From positions 1-42,762 of IMG/VR virus record IMGVR_UViG_3300030331_005930: a DNA stretch of 42,762 nucleotides; one strand, written 5' to 3'. The position numbers and the translations under genes are program-made. The stretch comes from a virus. The number at the start of each line of letters is the position of its first letter. Within the stretch, counting starts at the first letter, position 1. The notes below the pieces were generated by a model, which saw only the letters and a program-made list of their open reading frames with translations, was not told the DNA's origin and searched no databases. Of the stretch, positions 16,556 to 41,840 are shown piece by piece.

Positions 16556-16999
16556 ATGGCTGAAGAAGAGCTAGATGAAGCAGTTAATGATATTATTGCC
16601 CAAATAAAAGGTAATAATAAGACTGTACGTGAAAAAAAGCAAGATGTAGCTATCGATAAAGATAACTTAGAAGAGTTTATTATGAAGTCTTCAGGTAAAT
16701 TAGTTACCAAATCACTTGAAATTGTTGATAATGTAAATGATTACATCTCATCGGCTCCTGAAAATAGAGATGTTGCAGCCTTAGCTGAAGTAATAAAAGC
16801 AACGGCTGGTTCAATTGATACGTTACAAAAGCTTCATAGCTCAAATGAGAGAAACGAAACACAAAAAGAGGTTAAGCGAATGGATGTTGAATCCAAAGAG
16901 AGATTAAACATTGCTGATAATCAAACTAAAATGCTATTATCTAGAGACGATATAATGAAGGCTTTAGTAGAAAAGGATGATGATGTTATTGACGTTTAG
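16556..16999 (+). CDS. 16: Terminase small subunit, gp16-like
   Basis: A 147-aa acidic, helical protein. The central stretch (APENRDVAALAEVIKATAG, then LQKLHSSN) lines up with the coiled-coil core of T4 gp16 in the same order (the ADSPRHVEVFATLMGQM region, then LKLHKDM). The C-terminus is acidic and resembles the gp16 tail. Small terminase rings regulate the gp17 packaging motor. I choose ATG 16556 (second Met) from promoter spacing; 16550 would add two residues. It is on the strand opposite gp17 and about 12 kb from it, whereas 16 and 17 are adjacent in T4. The stop overlaps the convergent 448-aa gene. Confidence 0.75.
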   Translation: MAEEELDEAVNDIIAQIKGNNKTVREKKQDVAIDKDNLEEFIMKSSGKLVTKSLEIVDNVNDYISSAPENRDVAALAEVIKATAGSIDTLQKLHSSNERNETQKEVKRMDVESKERLNIADNQTKMLLSRDDIMKALVEKDDDVIDV

Positions 17000-18342
17000 A
17001 ACTTAAGATCATCGCAATCTTCTTCACTTACACAAATATCTTTTTCTTTAGCTTGTGCTAGATAGTCTTGAAACTCTTTCATTGTATCGAATGGCATCCA
17101 TACCGTCTCACCTGTAGTTGTCGGGTGAGAGTGTGAACCAGATAAAGCACCGTTAGTTAATTCAAGCGTCTTATTTGAAGCGCTTTGTGGGCTTGTAAAG
17201 GTTGTAACATTTAACACCCCGGGGAAAGTACCAAGTCTATCTATATCTGTTTGTTCTGGTGTTAGTTGTGTCCCTCCAATATTTGGATTTTCTCTTGGCT
17301 TAGCACCTGTTCCACCTTGACCGGCAACAGTATATAAATCAAAAGAACCCTCACTAGTAGATATAGTGAGACCGAAGTTTGGTATAGACGGACCACAGCA
17401 ACAACTACAACATACTTCTACACATTCTTCATCAATGTATTCGTTTCCTTGCTCATCAAAAGCTTTCTTTAAAATTAAAAATGATTTGCACACTTTATCA
17501 TTTTTTGTTTTTGATATATTTTGTTCCGGGTCAAAAAAGTTTATATCTCTTTTATAATTAAAAAGACGAAATGCGTCAACCCCAAGAAAATCTTCAATTA
17601 TACCTATAATTGTATTAGCAATACTACGTAAGATGTTACTAAATTTAATATCTTTAAGCATAAGATTACCCACAGCAATAGTAGATGAGGTATAGTTACC
17701 TAAAAACTCAGTATTTACCCGTTCAATAGATCTTTTATCAATATATGGAAGAGTGTTGTCACTATATACAGCACTTTCTGTATTATATTGTATGACTTTG
17801 GAACATGTTCTTTGACAGTTGGCAAGATTTCTGCGAATAAATGCTGGTGTCTTTTTAACTAAATTTAGCGATATATCATTTGATTCACCGTAATATATTG
17901 CTGTACCAGCATTTTGTTGTGCGGTGTTTGCTAAACACCCTAATATATCTGGAGAAGGAAAAAAGCAATTTTGTACTCTTCCACGACCTCTGTATGGGTT
18001 TTGCGCATATATAGCAACTTGATTAGTAAAAGGGCCGTTGTATAACTGCCTCATATAATATAAAGCTGCCTGCTCATTTATCTCAGGATTATCTGCTACA
18101 AGATCATTAACAAAGACACGCAACTGATTTAGACCTAATTGATAAACCTTTTTAAACGACTCACAAAGTTCTTTATCTTTATTTGTAAATGTGTAGCCTA
18201 ATATTTCTTTATCTTTACCCTTAGCGCTGCTTCCTCCCGCGCTTTCTTCAGCGGGGCAATCTGTTTCTATAACAGCAATGAACTGATCTTTAGTCAATTC
18301 TAAAGCTCTTAACGTCTCTACACTTTTATTACATATTGCCAT
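16996..18342 (-). CDS. Hub-region protein of unknown function, cysteine-rich (448 aa)
   Basis: No family recognised. It starts 1 nt after the gp27-like hub gene and has no late promoter, so it belongs to the gp53-gp27 transcript. It is rich in Cys, including a CCSCCC cluster near residue 313 and several paired cysteines (CQRTC). Residues about 100-260 look folded and mixed alpha/beta. The C-terminal 130 residues are Gly/Thr/Ser-rich with a SGSHSHPTTTGE segment and an acidic end. By position it stands where T4-like phages place hub or spike genes (gp5), but I see neither the lysozyme motifs nor a triple-beta-helix repeat. Most likely a hub-associated structural protein. Confidence 0.6.
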   Translation of the reverse strand: MAICNKSVETLRALELTKDQFIAVIETDCPAEESAGGSSAKGKDKEILGYTFTNKDKELCESFKKVYQLGLNQLRVFVNDLVADNPEINEQAALYYMRQLYNGPFTNQVAIYAQNPYRGRGRVQNCFFPSPDILGCLANTAQQNAGTAIYYGESNDISLNLVKKTPAFIRRNLANCQRTCSKVIQYNTESAVYSDNTLPYIDKRSIERVNTEFLGNYTSSTIAVGNLMLKDIKFSNILRSIANTIIGIIEDFLGVDAFRLFNYKRDINFFDPEQNISKTKNDKVCKSFLILKKAFDEQGNEYIDEECVEVCCSCCCGPSIPNFGLTISTSEGSFDLYTVAGQGGTGAKPRENPNIGGTQLTPEQTDIDRLGTFPGVLNVTTFTSPQSASNKTLELTNGALSGSHSHPTTTGETVWMPFDTMKEFQDYLAQAKEKDICVSEEDCDDLKF

Positions 18343-33122: not shown

Positions 33123-33944
33123 ATGCCATCAACACCTCCATGTAATCAGAATAGATTAAACTGCCTTCCTGAAGAAGTTTTAGCAGCAACTGCTATACCT
33201 TCTTGCGGTCAGCTTGTTAGTCCATATAACTTACAAGCAGAGCAGTTAGTGTTTGATCAGGCATTTAATGATTTAATTAATAACTTTGGTATACCGGTAG
33301 ATTACTACATTAACACTTTTAATCTTTCTGCTGCTGATTTGCTCTATGGAGAAGATTTTGGAAACGAAACTGATAGAAGACAATATCAAGGCCCGCTTTC
33401 AGGTATGCAAATGTATGTTGAGCTATCTGATGATGCAATTAATTTGTCTAAATTTGGTTTTGATCCAGATGATGAGTTTACAGCCTTTGTACATATAAGT
33501 TCTTTTCAATCTACAGCATCAGCATATTTTGATTATTCAGCAGTCGCACAAGCAATTGAACCTAAGGCTGGTGATGTAATTGATTTAAAGGTGTTAGGTT
33601 GTGATAGACCAAATCAAAGGGGGTCAGTTATGTTTCAAGTAACTGAACGGATGGACCAAGACTTAGCTGTCTTAAATCCAGTGCTTGGACATTATGTATA
33701 TAGACTTCGTGGAAAAAGATTTAATTACTCGTTTGAGTCAGGCTTATCAAGCGAGCCTGTTAATGAACAGATATACGACAGTACAAAGAGTGGTATATTA
33801 TCCACAACCTTCTTTAGTCAATCTGCATCAGAAGGCAAAACATACCCTAATCAACACGACCCTTATGATATTAACGACGTATCAAAGACACAGGTAATGG
33901 ATATGGATGTCAATGATACAGACATCTATGGCTCGTATTATTAA
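33123..33944 (+). CDS. 14: Neck protein gp14-like
   Basis: A 273-aa protein (T4 gp14 is 256) that follows gp14 along its length: FGIPVDYYINTFNLSAADLL then YGEDFGNE at about 55-82 (T4 has [22 protein letters not shown]), SKFGFDPDDEFT at about 109-120 (T4: SKFGMQVQDEVT), then EPKAGDVIDL and a RLRGKRFNYSFE strand. gp13 and gp14 close the filled head and form the tail-docking neck. It starts 1 nt after the nucleotidyltransferase stop and shares its transcript. It overlaps the convergent glycosyltransferase stop by 4 nt. Confidence 0.8.
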   Translation: MPSTPPCNQNRLNCLPEEVLAATAIPSCGQLVSPYNLQAEQLVFDQAFNDLINNFGIPVDYYINTFNLSAADLLYGEDFGNETDRRQYQGPLSGMQMYVELSDDAINLSKFGFDPDDEFTAFVHISSFQSTASAYFDYSAVAQAIEPKAGDVIDLKVLGCDRPNQRGSVMFQVTERMDQDLAVLNPVLGHYVYRLRGKRFNYSFESGLSSEPVNEQIYDSTKSGILSTTFFSQSASEGKTYPNQHDPYDINDVSKTQVMDMDVNDTDIYGSYY

Positions 33945-33965
33945 GAATCAACAGCTTTAATAATA
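33936..33965. terminator. AT-only inverted repeat between convergent genes, possible weak bidirectional terminator
   Basis: TATTATTAA at 33936-33944 and TTAATAATA at 33957-33965 form a 9-bp inverted repeat with a 12-nt loop across the gp14 and glycosyltransferase stops. No GC core, so weak. Confidence 0.3.
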
Positions 33966-34837
33966 GCTTGTACGTCGTGTAACTCGTCTACACTATCATA
34001 AGGGCATTGATGAATGACACCTTGAAAGTCATAATCGTAAAGATAAGAATCAACTGTACCCTCCTCACGTTTTACTTTAGGTACAATGTTGGTATGCATT
34101 TCATATCCAAATACTTTAGGCTGCGTGTTAACCCATACAACAACAGATGGTAGTTGAAGCGGTACAGCAGCATGCTGTAGAGACGAATCAATAAACAATC
34201 TCTTCTCAGCGTGAGCAATCATAGCAAAGAGAGGCTTTTTACCAATTGTTTTATCAAAACGATAACAATTATTTAACTTAGGATGAAATTCATAGCATAT
34301 ATGTACAATATTATATTTTTGAGCTAACCCATCAACTACTTCTTGTGCTTGAGCTGGGTGCATATCTCTAGTCCATGAATAGGGATGCTGTTGATGATCT
34401 TTCCCTGGACCTCCAAATGGTTGAAATACTAATAAAGGCTTTTGACCGTCACTAAACTGACTCATATAAGCTCGACCTTCTTCTATCTCTCTAAAATTAA
34501 AATTTAGAACAGGCTTTTCACCATTATACTTTGTACCAATCATATCACACCACGTCTTAATTAAGTGTGACTTTTTTGTAATATGGCTAGTTTGCTTATA
34601 TGGGTCTTGAGCAAATACTTTTACATCTTTACCTTTGATAACATCTTGATAAAAATAAGGTGTGTTACCAATTCTATAGAATCTAGCAACATCTTTATTT
34701 TTAACCCATACCTCAGGCCAAGCAGAAACAACAATAATCTTTCGTTTAGGATTAGACTTCTTATAAGCTGCTGTTACAGCTGTTGCAGCGACATTTTTAC
34801 CAATGCCTCCTTCGATGTGAAATACAGTAGTAGCCAT
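33941..34837 (-). CDS. GT9-like (heptosyltransferase-type) glycosyltransferase
   Basis: A 298-aa GT-B protein. The N-terminus FHIEGGIGKNVAATAVTAAY matches the Gly-rich first loop of this group. KPLLVFQPFGG near residue 133 and LFIDSSLQHAAVPLQLPSVV at about 214-233 match the GT9 nucleotide-sugar-binding segment (the D-S-x-x-x-H-x-A pattern). Such phage enzymes may modify phage DNA, virion glycans or host surface sugar. There is no late motif; TACTAT lies 9 nt before the ATG, the same spacing as for GMP reductase, suggesting earlier expression than its structural neighbours. It may use sugars from the operon at 40.5-42.8 kb. Acceptor unknown. Confidence 0.75.
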   Translation of the reverse strand: MATTVFHIEGGIGKNVAATAVTAAYKKSNPKRKIIVVSAWPEVWVKNKDVARFYRIGNTPYFYQDVIKGKDVKVFAQDPYKQTSHITKKSHLIKTWCDMIGTKYNGEKPVLNFNFREIEEGRAYMSQFSDGQKPLLVFQPFGGPGKDHQQHPYSWTRDMHPAQAQEVVDGLAQKYNIVHICYEFHPKLNNCYRFDKTIGKKPLFAMIAHAEKRLFIDSSLQHAAVPLQLPSVVVWVNTQPKVFGYEMHTNIVPKVKREEGTVDSYLYDYDFQGVIHQCPYDSVDELHDVQAIIKAVDS

Positions 34838-34876: not shown

Positions 34877-37267
34877 TTATGGACCAGTTGAGATCTTTAA
34901 GTCATTACCATCTCTATATACTACTCCTGCAACCTTAGGATCTGCTGCTGGTAGACCGCACCCACAATTATCAGCACTAAGAAAAAGTCTATTGGTATGA
35001 AGCATGTGACCAGAAACTGCTACAATATTAGAACCTAATATTGAAGAATGACAAAAACACGCTCGGCTTGCTCCGGAACCACCACCGGGGCGGGTCGATG
35101 CGCATGTGCCCGCACCGCCAATAGTATTACCTATACCCGCACCAATAAAACTAAAACCAGTACATATGCAATTACCATTGCCCCCGGTTACGGATGAGCA
35201 ACACCCAACATCAGATATTTGATTTGCATTTCCACCACCTATAAAGCTATTTGCTCCACAAATAAAGTGATTACTACCACCGCCTACCGTACTTTGAGTA
35301 CCCGCTTTTAAGATAGCATTGCAAAAACCACCAACAATTGCAGCTCGATTTGTCGTCGTGCAGTTAGCACCACCACCACCTACGAATGAGCACTCACCAG
35401 CAGCAGATAATGAATTTCCACCCACTACTGTTGAATAGCTGTTACGTGCTGTATTAACGCAACCACCTACAATACTAGTAAATGATCCGTGAGCTGTATT
35501 TTTTGTACCACCTACAACGACACTAGATGTTCCACATGCACAGTTACAAACACCACCGCCTGTAAATGCGCTTGCTGCAACTACGTTTGAATAACCACCG
35601 ACTATTACTCCGTTTCTAGCATCACCCGAAGTAGTGTTTTTACTACCACCAACAATTACTGTTTGCTTACCACATGCGACTTTATTGTTTTGACCGCCGC
35701 CTATAAAGTTACCAATACCACCGGCAGAGTATGTATCGTTTTTACAACCACCAACAATTACATCAAAACATGAAGTAGCAGATAAAGAATAACCGCCTCC
35801 CACAAATGCACAAGCACCGCAACTGACTTTGTTTTGAGCTCCACCAGCTATTGTTCCAAATGCTGCGCTGTCTATACTATTGTTTTCACCGCCTCCAATA
35901 GTTGCATAACAAATACAGGCAATATTATCTTTACCACCCCCAACGGTTGCACCATGCTCGAGCGCGCAGTTCTTTAGACCTCCGGCTACTGTGCTTTCAC
36001 AACCGCTAGATATATTACATTTACCGCCGCCTACAGTAGAATGACAACTGCCACATGCGTTGTTTTCTTCACCACCACCAACTGTTCCAAAGTTAGATAC
36101 TGTGTTGCAAAGTCCACCTCCAATAGCTCCAAAACAATCTTGAGAATCATGATTACATCCACCGCCGATGGATCCAAATTTTCCACACGAGCTATTGCAA
36201 ACACCACCAGCAATAGTTGCAAAATCACCTTGCGCGCTGTTACTAAAGCCACCGCCAACAAATGTCCCTTTACAACCTGCGCAGTTATTATGACCTCCAA
36301 CAACAGCAGTACCCGCTTCTGTTGCAGCATTACCACAACCACCACCAACAAATGAACTTAAGCCCGAAGCTGAATTTGTCATCCCACCTACAACTGCCGA
36401 TCCACAATTACCTGCTGCTGAGTTACCGCAACCACTACCGATAAACGAACTAAGACCAGATGCAGTATTAGAACCTCCAGCTACTACACCAGCGGCATCA
36501 CCCGCTGCAGTTGCTTGATTACATCTACCACCAACAACTGAACAATCTCCAGCAGCGGTATTTTTAAATCCACCAACAACAGAACCATGGCATCCTGAAG
36601 AGGTGTTGCAACATCCACCAGCAATATTACTAGCTCGAGCTGAAGCAATATTGCAATAACCACCTCCAACTGCTGCATAAAGTTCACTTGCCGCGTTATC
36701 ATCGCCACCTGCAACTGTAGAATAAAATGCACTTGCGCAGTTTTGCCTACCTCCTCCAATAGTAGAACCTAAAGAACTTGCTACATTTGTGTTACCACCA
36801 CCAACAGTACCACAAGCTCCCGTAACACAGTTGGCAGTACCACCGCCAACAATACCGCAGTTACCTGTAATGCAGTTACTTTTACCACCGCCTACAAATG
36901 AATTTTCCCCAAGCGCTTCGTTGCCACATCCACCGGCAATAGTACTACATGTGCAGTTAGCACAGTTATTACAGCCACCAGTAATAGAAGAACCAGCACC
37001 GACGGTAATTCCAGCTCCAGCTGCTACGACCAGACTGCCGCTAGCGCTTAAATTACCTTTTATAGATTGATTTGTTTGAAAGAAGCTATTAGCCAGTGGC
37101 GTTGCTAGTGGTCTATCTTGCGCTGTACCGTACTTTGCTCCAGAGAGATAATTTGCAATCGAGCTCAGAGAAGCGCGACGAGTTTGCGCTTCATCGACTA
37201 ATGCGACTTCTTCAGTTCCAGTATATGGTATGATGCCTTCGTTGAGCTCAGTAATCTTTTTACCCAT
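34877..37267 (-). CDS. Cysteine-rich YadA-head/hemagglutinin-repeat fiber protein (796 aa)
   Basis: From about residue 95 to 750 the protein is a chain of more than 40 imperfect 14-16-residue repeats of the form S-x-V-GGG-x-x-N-x-x-S-G (for example STIGGGRQNCASAFY), the pattern of left-handed beta-roll heads in trimeric autotransporter adhesins. By my count it has about 55 cysteines, mostly at the turn position after Asn. The N-terminal 85 residues (KITELNEGIIPYTGTEEVAL) look like a virion-attachment domain common in phage fibers. The last 40 residues (VAGVVYRDGNDLKISTGP) form a capping segment. Likely a trimeric fiber or decoration; receptor unknown. A late promoter lies 5 nt before the ATG. 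Confidence 0.75.
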   Translation of the reverse strand: MGKKITELNEGIIPYTGTEEVALVDEAQTRRASLSSIANYLSGAKYGTAQDRPLATPLANSFFQTNQSIKGNLSASGSLVVAAGAGITVGAGSSITGGCNNCANCTCSTIAGGCGNEALGENSFVGGGKSNCITGNCGIVGGGTANCVTGACGTVGGGNTNVASSLGSTIGGGRQNCASAFYSTVAGGDDNAASELYAAVGGGYCNIASARASNIAGGCCNTSSGCHGSVVGGFKNTAAGDCSVVGGRCNQATAAGDAAGVVAGGSNTASGLSSFIGSGCGNSAAGNCGSAVVGGMTNSASGLSSFVGGGCGNAATEAGTAVVGGHNNCAGCKGTFVGGGFSNSAQGDFATIAGGVCNSSCGKFGSIGGGCNHDSQDCFGAIGGGLCNTVSNFGTVGGGEENNACGSCHSTVGGGKCNISSGCESTVAGGLKNCALEHGATVGGGKDNIACICYATIGGGENNSIDSAAFGTIAGGAQNKVSCGACAFVGGGYSLSATSCFDVIVGGCKNDTYSAGGIGNFIGGGQNNKVACGKQTVIVGGSKNTTSGDARNGVIVGGYSNVVAASAFTGGGVCNCACGTSSVVVGGTKNTAHGSFTSIVGGCVNTARNSYSTVVGGNSLSAAGECSFVGGGGANCTTTNRAAIVGGFCNAILKAGTQSTVGGGSNHFICGANSFIGGGNANQISDVGCCSSVTGGNGNCICTGFSFIGAGIGNTIGGAGTCASTRPGGGSGASRACFCHSSILGSNIVAVSGHMLHTNRLFLSADNCGCGLPAADPKVAGVVYRDGNDLKISTGP

Positions 37268-37279: not shown

Positions 37280-37519
37280 TTACTTTGGCGCTTTTAGCCT
37301 GCAACAAATAGCAATAACTATTGCAAAAACACCAGAGAATAGTAAATGTCTCTTAAATCCGTCAACCGATGTACAAAGACCTTTAAAGTCAACTGCTTTA
37401 CTTCCTCCGTTTTGAATAGCATCTAATGAAAGTTTCATTTCTTCAGCACAAGTATAGCCTCTTACAACGAAGGCTAATATAATAGCTGATAAGATATATA
37501 CTAAGTATCTAGGTTTCAT
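37280..37519 (-). CDS. Small two-segment membrane protein (79 aa)
   Basis: Two hydrophobic segments, residues about 6-22 (LVYILSAIILAFVVRGY) and about 58-74 (HLLFSGVFAIVIAICC), flank a 35-residue polar loop with two cysteines. Its ATG overlaps the holin stop by ATGA, so it is coupled to the holin. Candidates are an antiholin, a spanin-like or second holin component. No lipobox is visible. Function is inferred only from the coupling. Confidence 0.6.
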   Translation of the reverse strand: MKPRYLVYILSAIILAFVVRGYTCAEEMKLSLDAIQNGGSKAVDFKGLCTSVDGFKRHLLFSGVFAIVIAICCRLKAPK

Positions 37520-37833
37520 TTTTTAAGAACCTTTTCAGGATTATCTGCAAATTTTTTACCTAACTTAACAATACCAGCTATTACTTCTGGAGAGATAACA
37601 CCAATAATACCATATGTAACAGCTTTATAGAGGGAAGATATTTCTGTTTGCTCTAAAATAAACCATGCAATACCAGCAGAGAGACCAGCTGTAAATATCT
37701 TTTTAAGTTGCTGCCACCATGTATAATTATTTTCACCTGATAGTAAACGAGCGAGCATAGCGCCGGCGCCAATTAAAGGCACGACCCAACCTCCTTGGAG
37801 GAACTCTTTCAGTAGGGATTTTTCCGGCTCCAT
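37516..37833 (-). CDS. Holin, LydA/family-3-like
   Basis: 105 aa from ATG 37833, which I prefer over longer upstream starts because the late promoter lies between them. Three hydrophobic segments at about 15-31, 46-60 and 70-88, with WWQQLKKIFTAGLSAG and the ISPEVIAGIVKLGKKF segment of LydA-type phage holins, and a basic tail (KVLKK). Holins pore the inner membrane to trigger lysis. No endolysin is visible within the window. The late motif is 7 nt from the ATG, the longest of the regular spacings. It is coupled to the 79-aa membrane protein. Confidence 0.75.
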   Translation of the reverse strand: MEPEKSLLKEFLQGGWVVPLIGAGAMLARLLSGENNYTWWQQLKKIFTAGLSAGIAWFILEQTEISSLYKAVTYGIIGVISPEVIAGIVKLGKKFADNPEKVLKK

Positions 37834-37840
37834 GTTAATA

Positions 37841-37847
37841 TATTTAT
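37841..37847 (-). promoter_or_regulatory. T4-type late promoter element (holin)
   Basis: Reverse strand CATAAATA, then 7 nt, then ATG 37833. Confidence 0.6.
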
Positions 37848-37880
37848 GTACAAACCTACGTAGTTCTATAGAGTTGTACA
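37847..37880. repeat. Inverted repeat around an 8-bp palindrome, possible operator
   Basis: TGTACAA (37847-37853) and TTGTACA (37874-37880) flank the palindrome CTACGTAG (37856-37863), in the divergent region between the holin and nuclease promoters. Could be a binding site or hairpin; function unknown. Confidence 0.35.
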
Positions 37881-37887
37881 TTTATTA

Positions 37888-37922: not shown

Positions 37923-38603
37923 GTGAAGATAAAATTTGATGAAGCGTCTCATACCTATACGCATAAAGATACTGATGAAAAGTTTATATCAGTAACAACT
38001 TTACTTGGTAAGTATAAGCAACCTTTTGATAGAGATGGGCACTCAAAGCGAGTAGCAGATAGAGAAGGTGTATCGCAAGAACTAGTATTAGAAATGTGGG
38101 AAAAGGAGAAGGTTAGAGCTTGTACTCGTGGTACCAACATTCATAAGATCTTAGAAGATTATATTAGTTTTGGTGATGTAGAAGATAACTACGGGTGGTT
38201 ATGTAAATCATATGATAAAGCTGCAGAGCGTTCAATTGACTCTTTTAACAAAGTACTATGTGAGAACCTATTATATGATGAAGAGTTTAAAGTAGCTGGT
38301 ACAGCTGATCTAATATATGAACATAAAAATGAGTTTACTATTGGTGACTTTAAAACAAATAAGAGGTTTAGATTTAGTTCACCTTATTCTGAGCGGTTAA
38401 AAGATCCGATTAGCCATCTTCATAACTGCGAGTTTAATTTATATGGCTTGCAGCTATCTTTGTATGCTTATCTCTATGAAAGAATGACTAGTAAAAGATG
38501 TAGAAAATGTGTTATCTTTTATCTAAAAGATGATAGATTTTTATCTTATCATGTAAATTATATGAAAGCAGAAGTAGAAGCTCTCCTAGCTAGTATGAAG
38601 TAG
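37923..38603 (+). CDS. PD-(D/E)XK nuclease, RecB/Cas4-like
   Basis: 226 aa from a GTG preceded by AGAGG at only 2 nt. Core motifs of the RecB/Cas4 nuclease family are visible: RGTNIHKILEDY with His 74, GTADLI with Asp 129, GDFKTNK with Asp 142 and Lys 144, and the QxxxY motif Q177-Y181 (LQLSLYAY). These enzymes cut or resect DNA, and T4-like marine phages often carry one in place of part of their recombination set. No clear four-Cys iron-sulfur cluster is seen, so a true Cas4 is unlikely. It has an early/middle-type promoter, and its stop overlaps the convergent SOD gene by 18 nt. Confidence 0.8.
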   Translation: MKIKFDEASHTYTHKDTDEKFISVTTLLGKYKQPFDRDGHSKRVADREGVSQELVLEMWEKEKVRACTRGTNIHKILEDYISFGDVEDNYGWLCKSYDKAAERSIDSFNKVLCENLLYDEEFKVAGTADLIYEHKNEFTIGDFKTNKRFRFSSPYSERLKDPISHLHNCEFNLYGLQLSLYAYLYERMTSKRCRKCVIFYLKDDRFLSYHVNYMKAEVEALLASMK

Positions 38604-39212
38604 AGCAGAGCAAAAGTCCCAATTAACAATATCAAAAAAGTTCTGTAACCATTCTTGTCTTTTTGGTCCATACATAAGGTAGTAGCTATGCTCCCATACA
38701 TCTACTCCGAGAACTGGTTTACCTAAGCCAAACATTAGAGGGTTATCTTGATTGGGTGTCCTTACTAAATCTAATCTTCCATTCTTTTCTACCAGCCAAC
38801 CCCATCCGGAGCCAAATTGACCTTTAGCATTCTCAATAAACTCCTTTTTAAACTTAGCAAAAGTACCGAATCGTTTTAATATTCTGTCTTTTATCTCACC
38901 CGTGAAATCACTACCCCCAGGCTTCATCATATTAAAAAATAGCTGATGATTATATGCTCCTCCAGCATTATCTTTTATATGATCATTATATTTTTTTATA
39001 TCTTTAACTAACTCTACAAGCGGTGGTTTTCTCTTATTAACCATCGCCGCATTTAATTTTTTAACATATCCTTTATAATGGTCATTATAGTGAAAATCAG
39101 TTGTCTGTCTATTAACTACTGGTTCAAGAGCGTTTAGGGAGTATGGTAAGTTAATAGGCTTATATGAGCTAACCTTTTCTAAGAGTAAATCTACTTGATT
39201 TAAGAACTTCAT
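38586..39212 (-). CDS. sod: Fe/Mn superoxide dismutase
   Basis: 208 aa, normal family length. All four metal ligands are present: His 41 (DFHYNDHYKGYV), His 89 (GAYNHQLFF), Asp 171 and His 175 (VDVWEHSYYLMY). Gateway Tyr 49, Trp 137 and 139 (GSGWGWLV) and Glu 174 are also kept. Gly 84-85 before the second ligand plus Gln 155 (TPNQD) match the manganese-type arrangement, though metal use cannot be settled from sequence. It converts superoxide to peroxide and oxygen. No signal peptide, so cytoplasmic. A late promoter lies 6 nt before the ATG, so it is predicted to be made with virion proteins. Fe/Mn SODs are rare in phages. Confidence 0.93.
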   Translation of the reverse strand: MKFLNQVDLLLEKVSSYKPINLPYSLNALEPVVNRQTTDFHYNDHYKGYVKKLNAAMVNKRKPPLVELVKDIKKYNDHIKDNAGGAYNHQLFFNMMKPGGSDFTGEIKDRILKRFGTFAKFKKEFIENAKGQFGSGWGWLVEKNGRLDLVRTPNQDNPLMFGLGKPVLGVDVWEHSYYLMYGPKRQEWLQNFFDIVNWDFCSALLHTS

Positions 39213-40530: not shown

Positions 40531-41403
40531 ATGAGTAAAAAAATTGTAATACTAGGAAACGGATACGTAGGAAAGAATCTATATGATAGATTACTCTTTC
40601 CTGGACCAGATAAAAAGAGCTACGATGTAAAGATCGAAAAAAGAAAGCTGCTAAACTATAACGATATTAAGTGTCTTGAAATATATCTAGATAGAGAAAA
40701 GCCTGATTATGTTATCAACTGTTCAGGTTTTACAGGAAGGCCTAATGTAGATGAAGGTGAGTTTAAAAAAGAGCTTTGCTTTGAACTTAATACATTTGGA
40801 CCGCTGAGGGTAAGTAACCTGTGCAAGACAAAGAACATTAACTATATTCATATTTCTTCTGGATGTATATACACAGGTTATGAAAAGCCTTGGGAAGAAG
40901 ATGACGAACCTAATTTTGGTTTGTTTGATGAGGATTCTTCTACATACTCAAAGAGTAAGCATGCATTTGAGTTAGGATGTGATTGGGGACTAATACTAAG
41001 AGTTAGAATGCCGTTCTGTGATATACTTCATAATAGATCTTTCATTACAAAGATATATAAGTATGACAATCTAATTGATAGAGTCAACTCTAAGACATAT
41101 ATTCCTCAGCTTCTTGATTTTATTGAGCATTTTGTTAGTAATAATTACGAAGCAAAAGAAAAGGATATCTTAAATTTTGTTAATCCTGAAGCTCTTTCAA
41201 CAGCAAGAGTAACTCAGCTAATGGAGAAGTTTGATGTAGTTAATCCTGATTGGGACTGGATACATTATTGCGATCTAGATACAGTAGCTCATAGATCTAA
41301 TTGTGTCATGTCAACAAATAAATTAGAGGAGGAATATGGATTCGAGATATGGGATGAAGAAGTTGCACTTGAAGCTGCGCTGACTAATATAATAACGGTA
41401 TGA
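40531..41403 (+). CDS. Nucleotide-rhamnose epimerase/reductase-like SDR (RmlD / NRS-ER type)
   Basis: 290-aa extended short-chain dehydrogenase. NAD(P)-binding GNGYVG at 9-14, INCSGFTGRPNVDEGE around 62-77, SSGCIYTGYEKPWEEDDEPN at 109-128 and catalytic Tyr 139/Lys 143 (YSKSK) match the 3,5-epimerase/4-reductase domain that makes UDP- or dTDP-rhamnose in plants and some viruses, rather than classical RmlD. LRVRMPFCD and FITKIYKYD also fit that family. It would act after the 4,6-dehydratase encoded two genes downstream. Stop overlaps the next start by ATGA. Confidence 0.8.
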   Translation: MSKKIVILGNGYVGKNLYDRLLFPGPDKKSYDVKIEKRKLLNYNDIKCLEIYLDREKPDYVINCSGFTGRPNVDEGEFKKELCFELNTFGPLRVSNLCKTKNINYIHISSGCIYTGYEKPWEEDDEPNFGLFDEDSSTYSKSKHAFELGCDWGLILRVRMPFCDILHNRSFITKIYKYDNLIDRVNSKTYIPQLLDFIEHFVSNNYEAKEKDILNFVNPEALSTARVTQLMEKFDVVNPDWDWIHYCDLDTVAHRSNCVMSTNKLEEEYGFEIWDEEVALEAALTNIITV

Positions 41404-41840
41404 GTAAAGAAATTTTAGGATTTACTGCAGGTAACTTTGATCTGCTTCATCCAGGCTACATTAGATGTTTTAGAGAAGCTAAGAGACATTGTGATAAATT
41501 TATTGTCTTTCTCCAAAAGGACCCTTCTCTACATAGAAAGAGCAAATATAAACCTGTAATATCTCTATACAATAGATACGAGGCACTGATGGCTATTAGA
41601 TATATTGATGATGTCTATACGTATCAAACAGAAGAAGAGCTTTACAGTTTAATTAAATTCTGGAAGCCTGATGTTCGTATCTTAGGAGAAGATTATATCG
41701 AGAAAGAATCCTTTACAGGAGATGATTTACCTCCTAAAGTAATTTATACTACTCGCTCTCATGGCTGGTCAACTACTCGACTAAAAGATCTTATCACTAA
41801 ACAGACTATCAAACAGAATCCAGACGTTTTTAAAAAGTGA
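41400..41840 (+). CDS. Cytidylyltransferase-like protein (146 aa)
   Basis: Nucleotidyltransferase of the TagD/HldE-C group: GNFDLLHPGYIRCFREAK at 11-28 is the nucleotide-binding motif, but the usual H-x-G-H reads HPGY (His 17, Tyr 20). RILGEDYI lies at about 93-100, and RSHGWSTTRLKDLI carries the S-T-T motif at 124-126. It may activate a small phosphorylated sugar or polyol as CDP or ADP derivative. The second His of H-x-G-H normally helps stabilise the transition state, so Tyr there is a real change; a similar HPGY variant may be widespread in phages. Overlaps both neighbours by 4 nt. Confidence 0.75.
   Translation: MSKEILGFTAGNFDLLHPGYIRCFREAKRHCDKFIVFLQKDPSLHRKSKYKPVISLYNRYEALMAIRYIDDVYTYQTEEELYSLIKFWKPDVRILGEDYIEKESFTGDDLPPKVIYTTRSHGWSTTRLKDLITKQTIKQNPDVFKK

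Follow-up and report, generated by a model that had tools for sequence, protein, structure and literature searches.

The cysteine-rich fibre encoded in the viral DNA analysed here is followed by a gene for a GT9-like glycosyltransferase, and a fibre-glycosyltransferase module with a cysteine-specific signature is better supported than the disulfide ladder suggested in the initial annotation. That annotation sought the role of the cysteines in the fibre itself and overlooked the adjacent enzyme, which comparative evidence links to cysteine. We put at about 0.45 the probability that sugars are attached to the fibre by this enzyme, with cysteine sulfur as the probable site. A broader proposal, of a widespread virus-encoded multi-site S-glycosylation in which a GT9-like enzyme would add dozens of sugars to cysteines of unrelated fibre types, the cysteine serving as sugar anchor in a reducing compartment, appears to us slightly less probable. 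We infer the fibre as acceptor and cysteine as attachment residue, as well as the nature of the sugar and the benefit to the virion.

The window, i.e. the whole 42,762-nt stretch of DNA that was analysed, belongs to a 50,763-base fragment of viral DNA in IMG/VR, whose record includes T4-like terminase and tail genes. The fibre gene (34877..37267, minus strand, ATG start, 796 aa) lies in a run of genes in the order holin, small ORF, fibre and glycosyltransferase. The first encodes a holin-like protein of 121 aa (37516..37881, minus strand; Pfam Phage_holin_3_3, E 6e-4, under the curated cut-off) and the second, also upstream of the fibre gene, a small membrane protein of 79 aa (37280..37519, minus strand); both are conserved in relatives. 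The GT9-like GT-B glycosyltransferase gene (33941..34837), whose 298-aa product is the proposed modifying enzyme, is likewise on the minus strand and follows the fibre gene after a gap of 39 nt. An Fe/Mn superoxide dismutase gene (38586-39212, minus strand; both domains, Pfam 5e-33 and 5e-19) is kept near the fibre in close relatives. From it had come the idea that the redox state of virion thiols matters; the gene is real, but no tie to the fibre thiols emerged, and at several loci with cysteine-rich fibres no superoxide dismutase gene was found in the sequence covered, many of these loci being fragments.

The fibre is composed of an N-terminal segment (aa 1-95), a repeat region (aa 96-735) with about 40 repeats and nearly all of the cysteines, and a C-terminal segment (aa 736-796). 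Its 55 cysteines amount to 6.9%, compared with 0 to 3.6% in the remaining ORFs of the window, except the 79-aa membrane ORF at 5.1%. The repeats are 13-18 residues long, mostly 15 (23 are exact 15-mers in strict register), with the consensus [G/A/V]GGxxNxxxGxxSx[V/I]. They show the tandem GG-N arrangement in units of 14-16 residues and the hydrophobic core positions expected of the YadA/UspA1 type. In phmmer the UspA1 head 3pr7 was matched at E 8e-21, the composition bias being strong; the match to Pfam UspA1_rep was weak (E 0.003, under the cut-off). At the level of sequence, the description of the protein as about 40 beta-roll repeats of the YadA/UspA1 type carrying 55 cysteines was borne out. 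An AlphaFold2 model of the single chain was poor (pLDDT 44), too poor for reading distances between cysteines, and had about two strands per repeat. The fibre had no PHROGs match, and neither it nor its N-terminal segment matched any of 50,697 named phage records. This segment is nevertheless common to otherwise different fibres (L012, L015, L039, L061, L074, L105, L128 and L169), which fits a mounting domain and agrees with the attachment-like N-terminus noted at the outset. As an observation apart, a 448-aa protein of the window (16996-18342, minus strand) contains 16 cysteines, including a cluster CVEVCCSCCCG with seven cysteines in eleven residues; a Pfam search with it gave no match.

Repeat consensus, spacing and core positions are nearly identical in the phage fibre and in bacterial UspA1/YadA-type heads. 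The fibre differs from these adhesins in being phage-encoded, in its cysteine content (7% against near zero), in the glycosyltransferase gene next to it and in its C-terminus, where no YadA membrane anchor was found with Pfam even at E 10. Many cysteines were said to lie right after the conserved Asn. This position (p7) does hold 8 of them, but comparable numbers occur at p4 (7), p5 (8), p9 (5), p10 (4), p11 (5) and p12 (6). Relatives of the fibre were found at L002-L005, L084, L300, L303 and other loci. Close relatives at the same locus in four IMG/VR records have 48-59 cysteines each, and fibres at 58% identity still have 29-59 while single cysteine positions are kept no better than other positions, showing that the amount of cysteine is conserved rather than the sites.

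We compared viral and cellular beta-rolls by two pattern scans that ignored cysteine, run on viral records and on bacterial and archaeal genomes, restricting the comparison to proteins with five or more repeats. Cysteine reached 2% or more in 47 of 103 viral proteins and in 1 of 104 cellular ones. Bacterial heads are therefore nearly cysteine-free, as had been stated, further cysteine-rich phage beta-rolls do exist, and cysteine richness is a trait of a broad viral fibre class. Compared one position at a time, viral and cellular repeats are alike, cysteine excepted: in viral repeats it accounts for 3-11% at p4, p5, p7 and p9-p12, and for at most 1.8% (p13) at core positions.

Such a difference could result from relaxed constraint. 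Phage fibres fold in a reducing cytoplasm, so that exposed cysteines would be tolerated and drift, whereas bacterial adhesins, exported unfolded through an oxidising periplasm, would have to avoid them. Cellular repeats nearly match the viral ones in all else but contain next to no cysteine, type V secreted proteins are low in cysteine (PMC8151025), and the turnover of single cysteine positions at 58% identity points the same way. The scarcity in bacterial heads can be due to poor tolerance of cysteine in secretion (PMC8151025), and relaxed constraint probably contributes to the difference between viral and cellular repeats. Poor tolerance in secretion does not explain the 7% in phages, however: tolerance alone does not yield such a content, other phage proteins having about 1%, and among close relatives cysteine is the best-kept loop residue (0.87, compared with 0.72 for Ser and 0.65 for Thr). 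Since it also leaves the link with the enzyme unexplained, we regard drift under relaxed constraint as an unlikely account of the cysteines.

If cysteines were stacked along the fibre, they could oxidise after lysis in oxygenated water and staple it by disulfide cross-links. Their density at non-core positions would suit this, as would a fibre assembled under reducing conditions and then set free in oxic water. We therefore examined cysteine pairing in 93 proteins not picked for cysteine (2,506 repeats, 1,549 cysteines), with expected values obtained by reshuffling the cysteines between the repeats of each protein. Neighbouring turns had cysteines at matching positions 98 times for 99.5 +/- 8.7 expected, so the in-register stacking needed for a ladder is at chance level. 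Pairs within a repeat were fewer than chance (388 observed, 443 expected, sd 17), and near neighbours were depleted, with 1 pair for 7.2 expected at p10-p12 and 11 for 22.9 at p4-p7. An apparent p7-p12 pairing was discarded as an artefact of selecting loci by a p7 plus p12 cysteine pattern. The lack of stacking and the avoidance within repeats speak against both a disulfide ladder and metal clusters. Disulfide cross-linking, which also leaves the glycosyltransferase unexplained, is in our judgement very unlikely. Metal binding along the fibre, for which cysteine density is the one favourable point, is more improbable still, given unclustered cysteines, the depletion of p10-p12 and p4-p7 pairs and a His content of only 1.3%. 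The spacing of cysteines away from each other is as expected for bulky attachments, not for pairs.

The product of the adjacent gene was modelled by AlphaFold2 with a pLDDT of 94.1 and a pTM of 0.90. Foldseek retrieved 3tov (6.5e-12), 1psw (7e-12) and TibC (about 1e-8), and VIA Z values were 23.3 for 3tov, 20.5 for WaaF, 20.0 for TibC and 19.2 for WaaC; same-fold chains of the chloroplast NDH complex gave 18-19 and other rows 11 or less. By its predicted fold, the enzyme is a GT-B glycosyltransferase closest to GT9 heptosyltransferases and to the protein heptosyltransferase TibC. At the level of families, all 37 members matched phrog_8954 (function unknown) and 17 of the 37 matched Pfam Glyco_transf_9 (best E 4.6e-5), the window enzyme itself scoring 16.8 bits, under the 22-bit gathering cut-off.

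The fold and a C-lobe DSxxxH motif are common to the phage enzyme and the heptosyltransferases WaaC, WaaF and 3tov. The differences lie in its neighbours, which are fibres and not LPS genes, and in the N-lobe, where the GD of WaaC/WaaF (D13) appears as an invariant GK in the phage family (GGxGK in 36 of 36). Residue spacing and structural ranges would place this Lys at WaaC D13 and TibC D110. The N-lobe Asp is the proposed base in TibC and WaaC (PMC4358343), and a thiol acceptor would depend less on such a base, which would fit a Lys in place of Asp.

TibC glycosylates repetitive adhesins on Ser (PMC4358343). A close parallel is offered by TibC and AAH (the BAHT family) with TibA and AIDA-I, where a repetitive solenoid adhesin likewise has a GT9-like enzyme of the GT-B fold as its partner. 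TibC is also among the closest solved structures to the phage enzyme; by analogy, the fibre and its enzyme may work like TibC/TibA pairs. The phage enzyme is shorter than these (298 aa against about 400), its family has no conserved four-Cys iron-finger, a Lys apparently replaces the base Asp, and Cys, not Ser, tracks the enzyme. No Cys occurs among the invariant or near-invariant columns of the family alignment. Without the iron-finger and with a different acceptor signature, the phage pair was not placed in the TibC/TibA family.

Relatives of the enzyme lie directly after cysteine-rich fibres in many fetched loci. We therefore searched for the enzyme only, in two scans with no condition on cysteine, and obtained 98 non-redundant viral loci. 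There, the gene just upstream of the enzyme had a median of 4.4% Cys and reached 2.5% or more in 81% of cases, compared with 2-6% for the six genes downstream; the enzyme itself has 1.4% Cys. Genes two to six places upstream were also raised (25-47% at 2.5% Cys or more), so the signal peaks beside the enzyme and is not confined there. The upstream proteins belong to unrelated repeat types: besides beta-rolls they include a leucine-rich-like repeat protein of 2,225 aa (L445, 8.4% Cys), 'NFxG...ATxA' solenoids with 3.5% (L360 and L367) and another repeat type with 2.8-5.0% (L323, L326-L328 and L331; 5.0% in L327). The link between enzyme and cysteine thus spans unrelated fibre types.

The same link was seen from the side of the fibre. 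Viral beta-rolls sampled blind to cysteine fell into two groups, 23 with an enzyme gene no more than 3 kb away, which had a median of 3.8% Cys, and 40 lacking one, with a median of 1.0% (p=6e-7). In the first group the enzyme gene invariably lay downstream of the beta-roll. At loop positions, Cys rose 2.5-fold, from 4.0% without the enzyme to 9.9% with it (p=4e-5), whereas Ser (1.04x), Thr (0.96x), Asn (0.94x) and Tyr (0.87x) were unchanged; Asp was lower with the enzyme (p=0.003, uncorrected). Of the residues that might accept a sugar, Cys is the only one to rise with the enzyme. When cysteine-rich beta-roll records had no adjacent enzyme, 11 of 24 carried it elsewhere (one as a contig-edge fragment), as did 9 of the 11 such records over 70 kb. 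The enzyme was present in 3 of 42 cysteine-poor beta-roll records, and in one of these three (the record of L106) a cysteine-rich fibre also adjoins the enzyme (L342).

These results bear on another possibility, namely that the enzyme glycosylates Ser, Thr or another residue of the fibre, or another virion or host glycan, cysteine being a separate lineage trait. In its favour, the adhesin repeats on which TibC and AAH act are modified at Ser (PMC4358343), the repeats of the fibre are rich in both Ser and Thr, and some Bacteroidota enzymes accompany proteins with ordinary cysteine content. Such a reading would nevertheless have to accommodate a signal limited to Cys, with Ser, Thr, Asn and Tyr following the enzyme in no way, and maintained across unrelated repeat types; we consider it rather doubtful, though it deserves some weight. 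Glycosylation of the fibre on cysteine must in turn accommodate exceptions. Where enough upstream DNA was available, the neighbour of the enzyme was below 2.5% Cys at 19 of 77 loci, among them L336 (0.0%) and L399 (0.5%), and no cysteine-rich gene precedes the enzyme in AG-345-L05 (L066). Many cysteine-rich beta-rolls had no enzyme in the sequence covered, and viral beta-rolls without it keep 4% Cys at loop positions. Confounding of the link by lineage, though reduced, may still play a part.

At four loci where cysteine-rich beta-rolls have no GT9-like gene nearby, other genes follow them (L006:8452-9429, L009, L086:4860-5798 and L146:3287-4231); by eye these are GT-A glycosyltransferase-like, and the two that were tested had no Pfam match.

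The enzyme was not found in 395 and 398 genomes of two cellular phyla (E 1e-20) and was found in 5 of 99 genomes of one cellular family; it is thus not strictly viral. In Bacteroidota L455, L459 and L461 the gene before it encodes a secreted NHL-repeat protein of unremarkable cysteine content, while L458 has a beta-roll of 6.1% Cys 17 nt before the enzyme. The latter is from the same family as the genome of L283 (CAIVHI010000109.1), a Bacteroidota MAG, and the L283 and L458 loci may be viral DNA. L283 holds the sole cellular beta-roll with at least 2% Cys in the cysteine-blind sample (4.9%); it adjoins dehydrogenase-like and Hsp70-like genes, and its genome bin gives three matches to the glycosyltransferase family. 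In L458 and L459 the enzyme is followed by an FkbM-like methyltransferase gene and a sulfotransferase-like gene, both named by eye.

Taken together, these observations suggest the following model. The fibre gene and the next gene would form a two-gene module. The fibre would be a beta-roll, adhesin-like rod with dozens of cysteines at variable, non-core positions, to which the GT9-like enzyme would add sugars in the reducing host cytoplasm, most likely S-linked on cysteine. The outcome would be a rod studded with many sugars, a coat that may help the virion through stability, binding or shielding. Two plus-strand genes of the window are, from their Pfam matches, possible candidates for supply of the donor sugar: an RmlD-like NAD-dependent sugar-nucleotide reductase (40531..41403; RmlD_sub_bind, E 2e-15) and a cytidylyltransferase-like nucleotidyltransferase (41400..41840; CTP_transf_like, E 7e-15). 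An RmlB/GDP-mannose-4,6-dehydratase-like dehydratase gene comes next and extends beyond the window end (L373:838-1830; GDP_Man_Dehyd, E 1e-60). In other phages the sugars may be sulfated by a nearby sulfotransferase, a gene found within 5 kb of the enzyme at 95 of 158 loci; none of the searched kinds was found in the window, the contig being a fragment.

Glycosylation of virions is already known in mycobacteriophages. Glycocin cysteine S-glycosyltransferases of the SunS type, GT-A enzymes whose substrates are small peptides, would have the proposed linkage, a sugar on Cys sulfur, in common with the phage enzyme, which differs in being GT-B and encoded next to the gene of a large fibre. YadA-domain proteins in host-recognition clusters of marine phages (PMC7029224, PMC3909814) are similarly adhesin-like, with glycosyltransferases in the same genome region, although neither paper mentions cysteine or a fibre-glycosyltransferase pair. 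In the literature searched, we found no paper joining cysteine-rich phage tail fibers, a glycosyltransferase and glycosylation, none combining a sulfotransferase, a glycosyltransferase and a phage tail fiber, and nothing on S-linked glycosylation that was relevant to phage fibres.

If cysteine glycosylation of these fibres is correct, it would explain why phage fibres are so rich in cysteine, a feature of which we found no account in the literature searched, and would give a function to the unannotated phage protein family phrog_8954. Virions of many uncultured aquatic phages would then bear a dense coat of Cys-bound sugars, a linkage otherwise described chiefly in a handful of small bacterial peptides. 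Even with another linkage, a fibre-plus-glycosyltransferase module is present in well over a hundred viral records and offers a concrete way into the question of how phages alter the surfaces that recognise their hosts.
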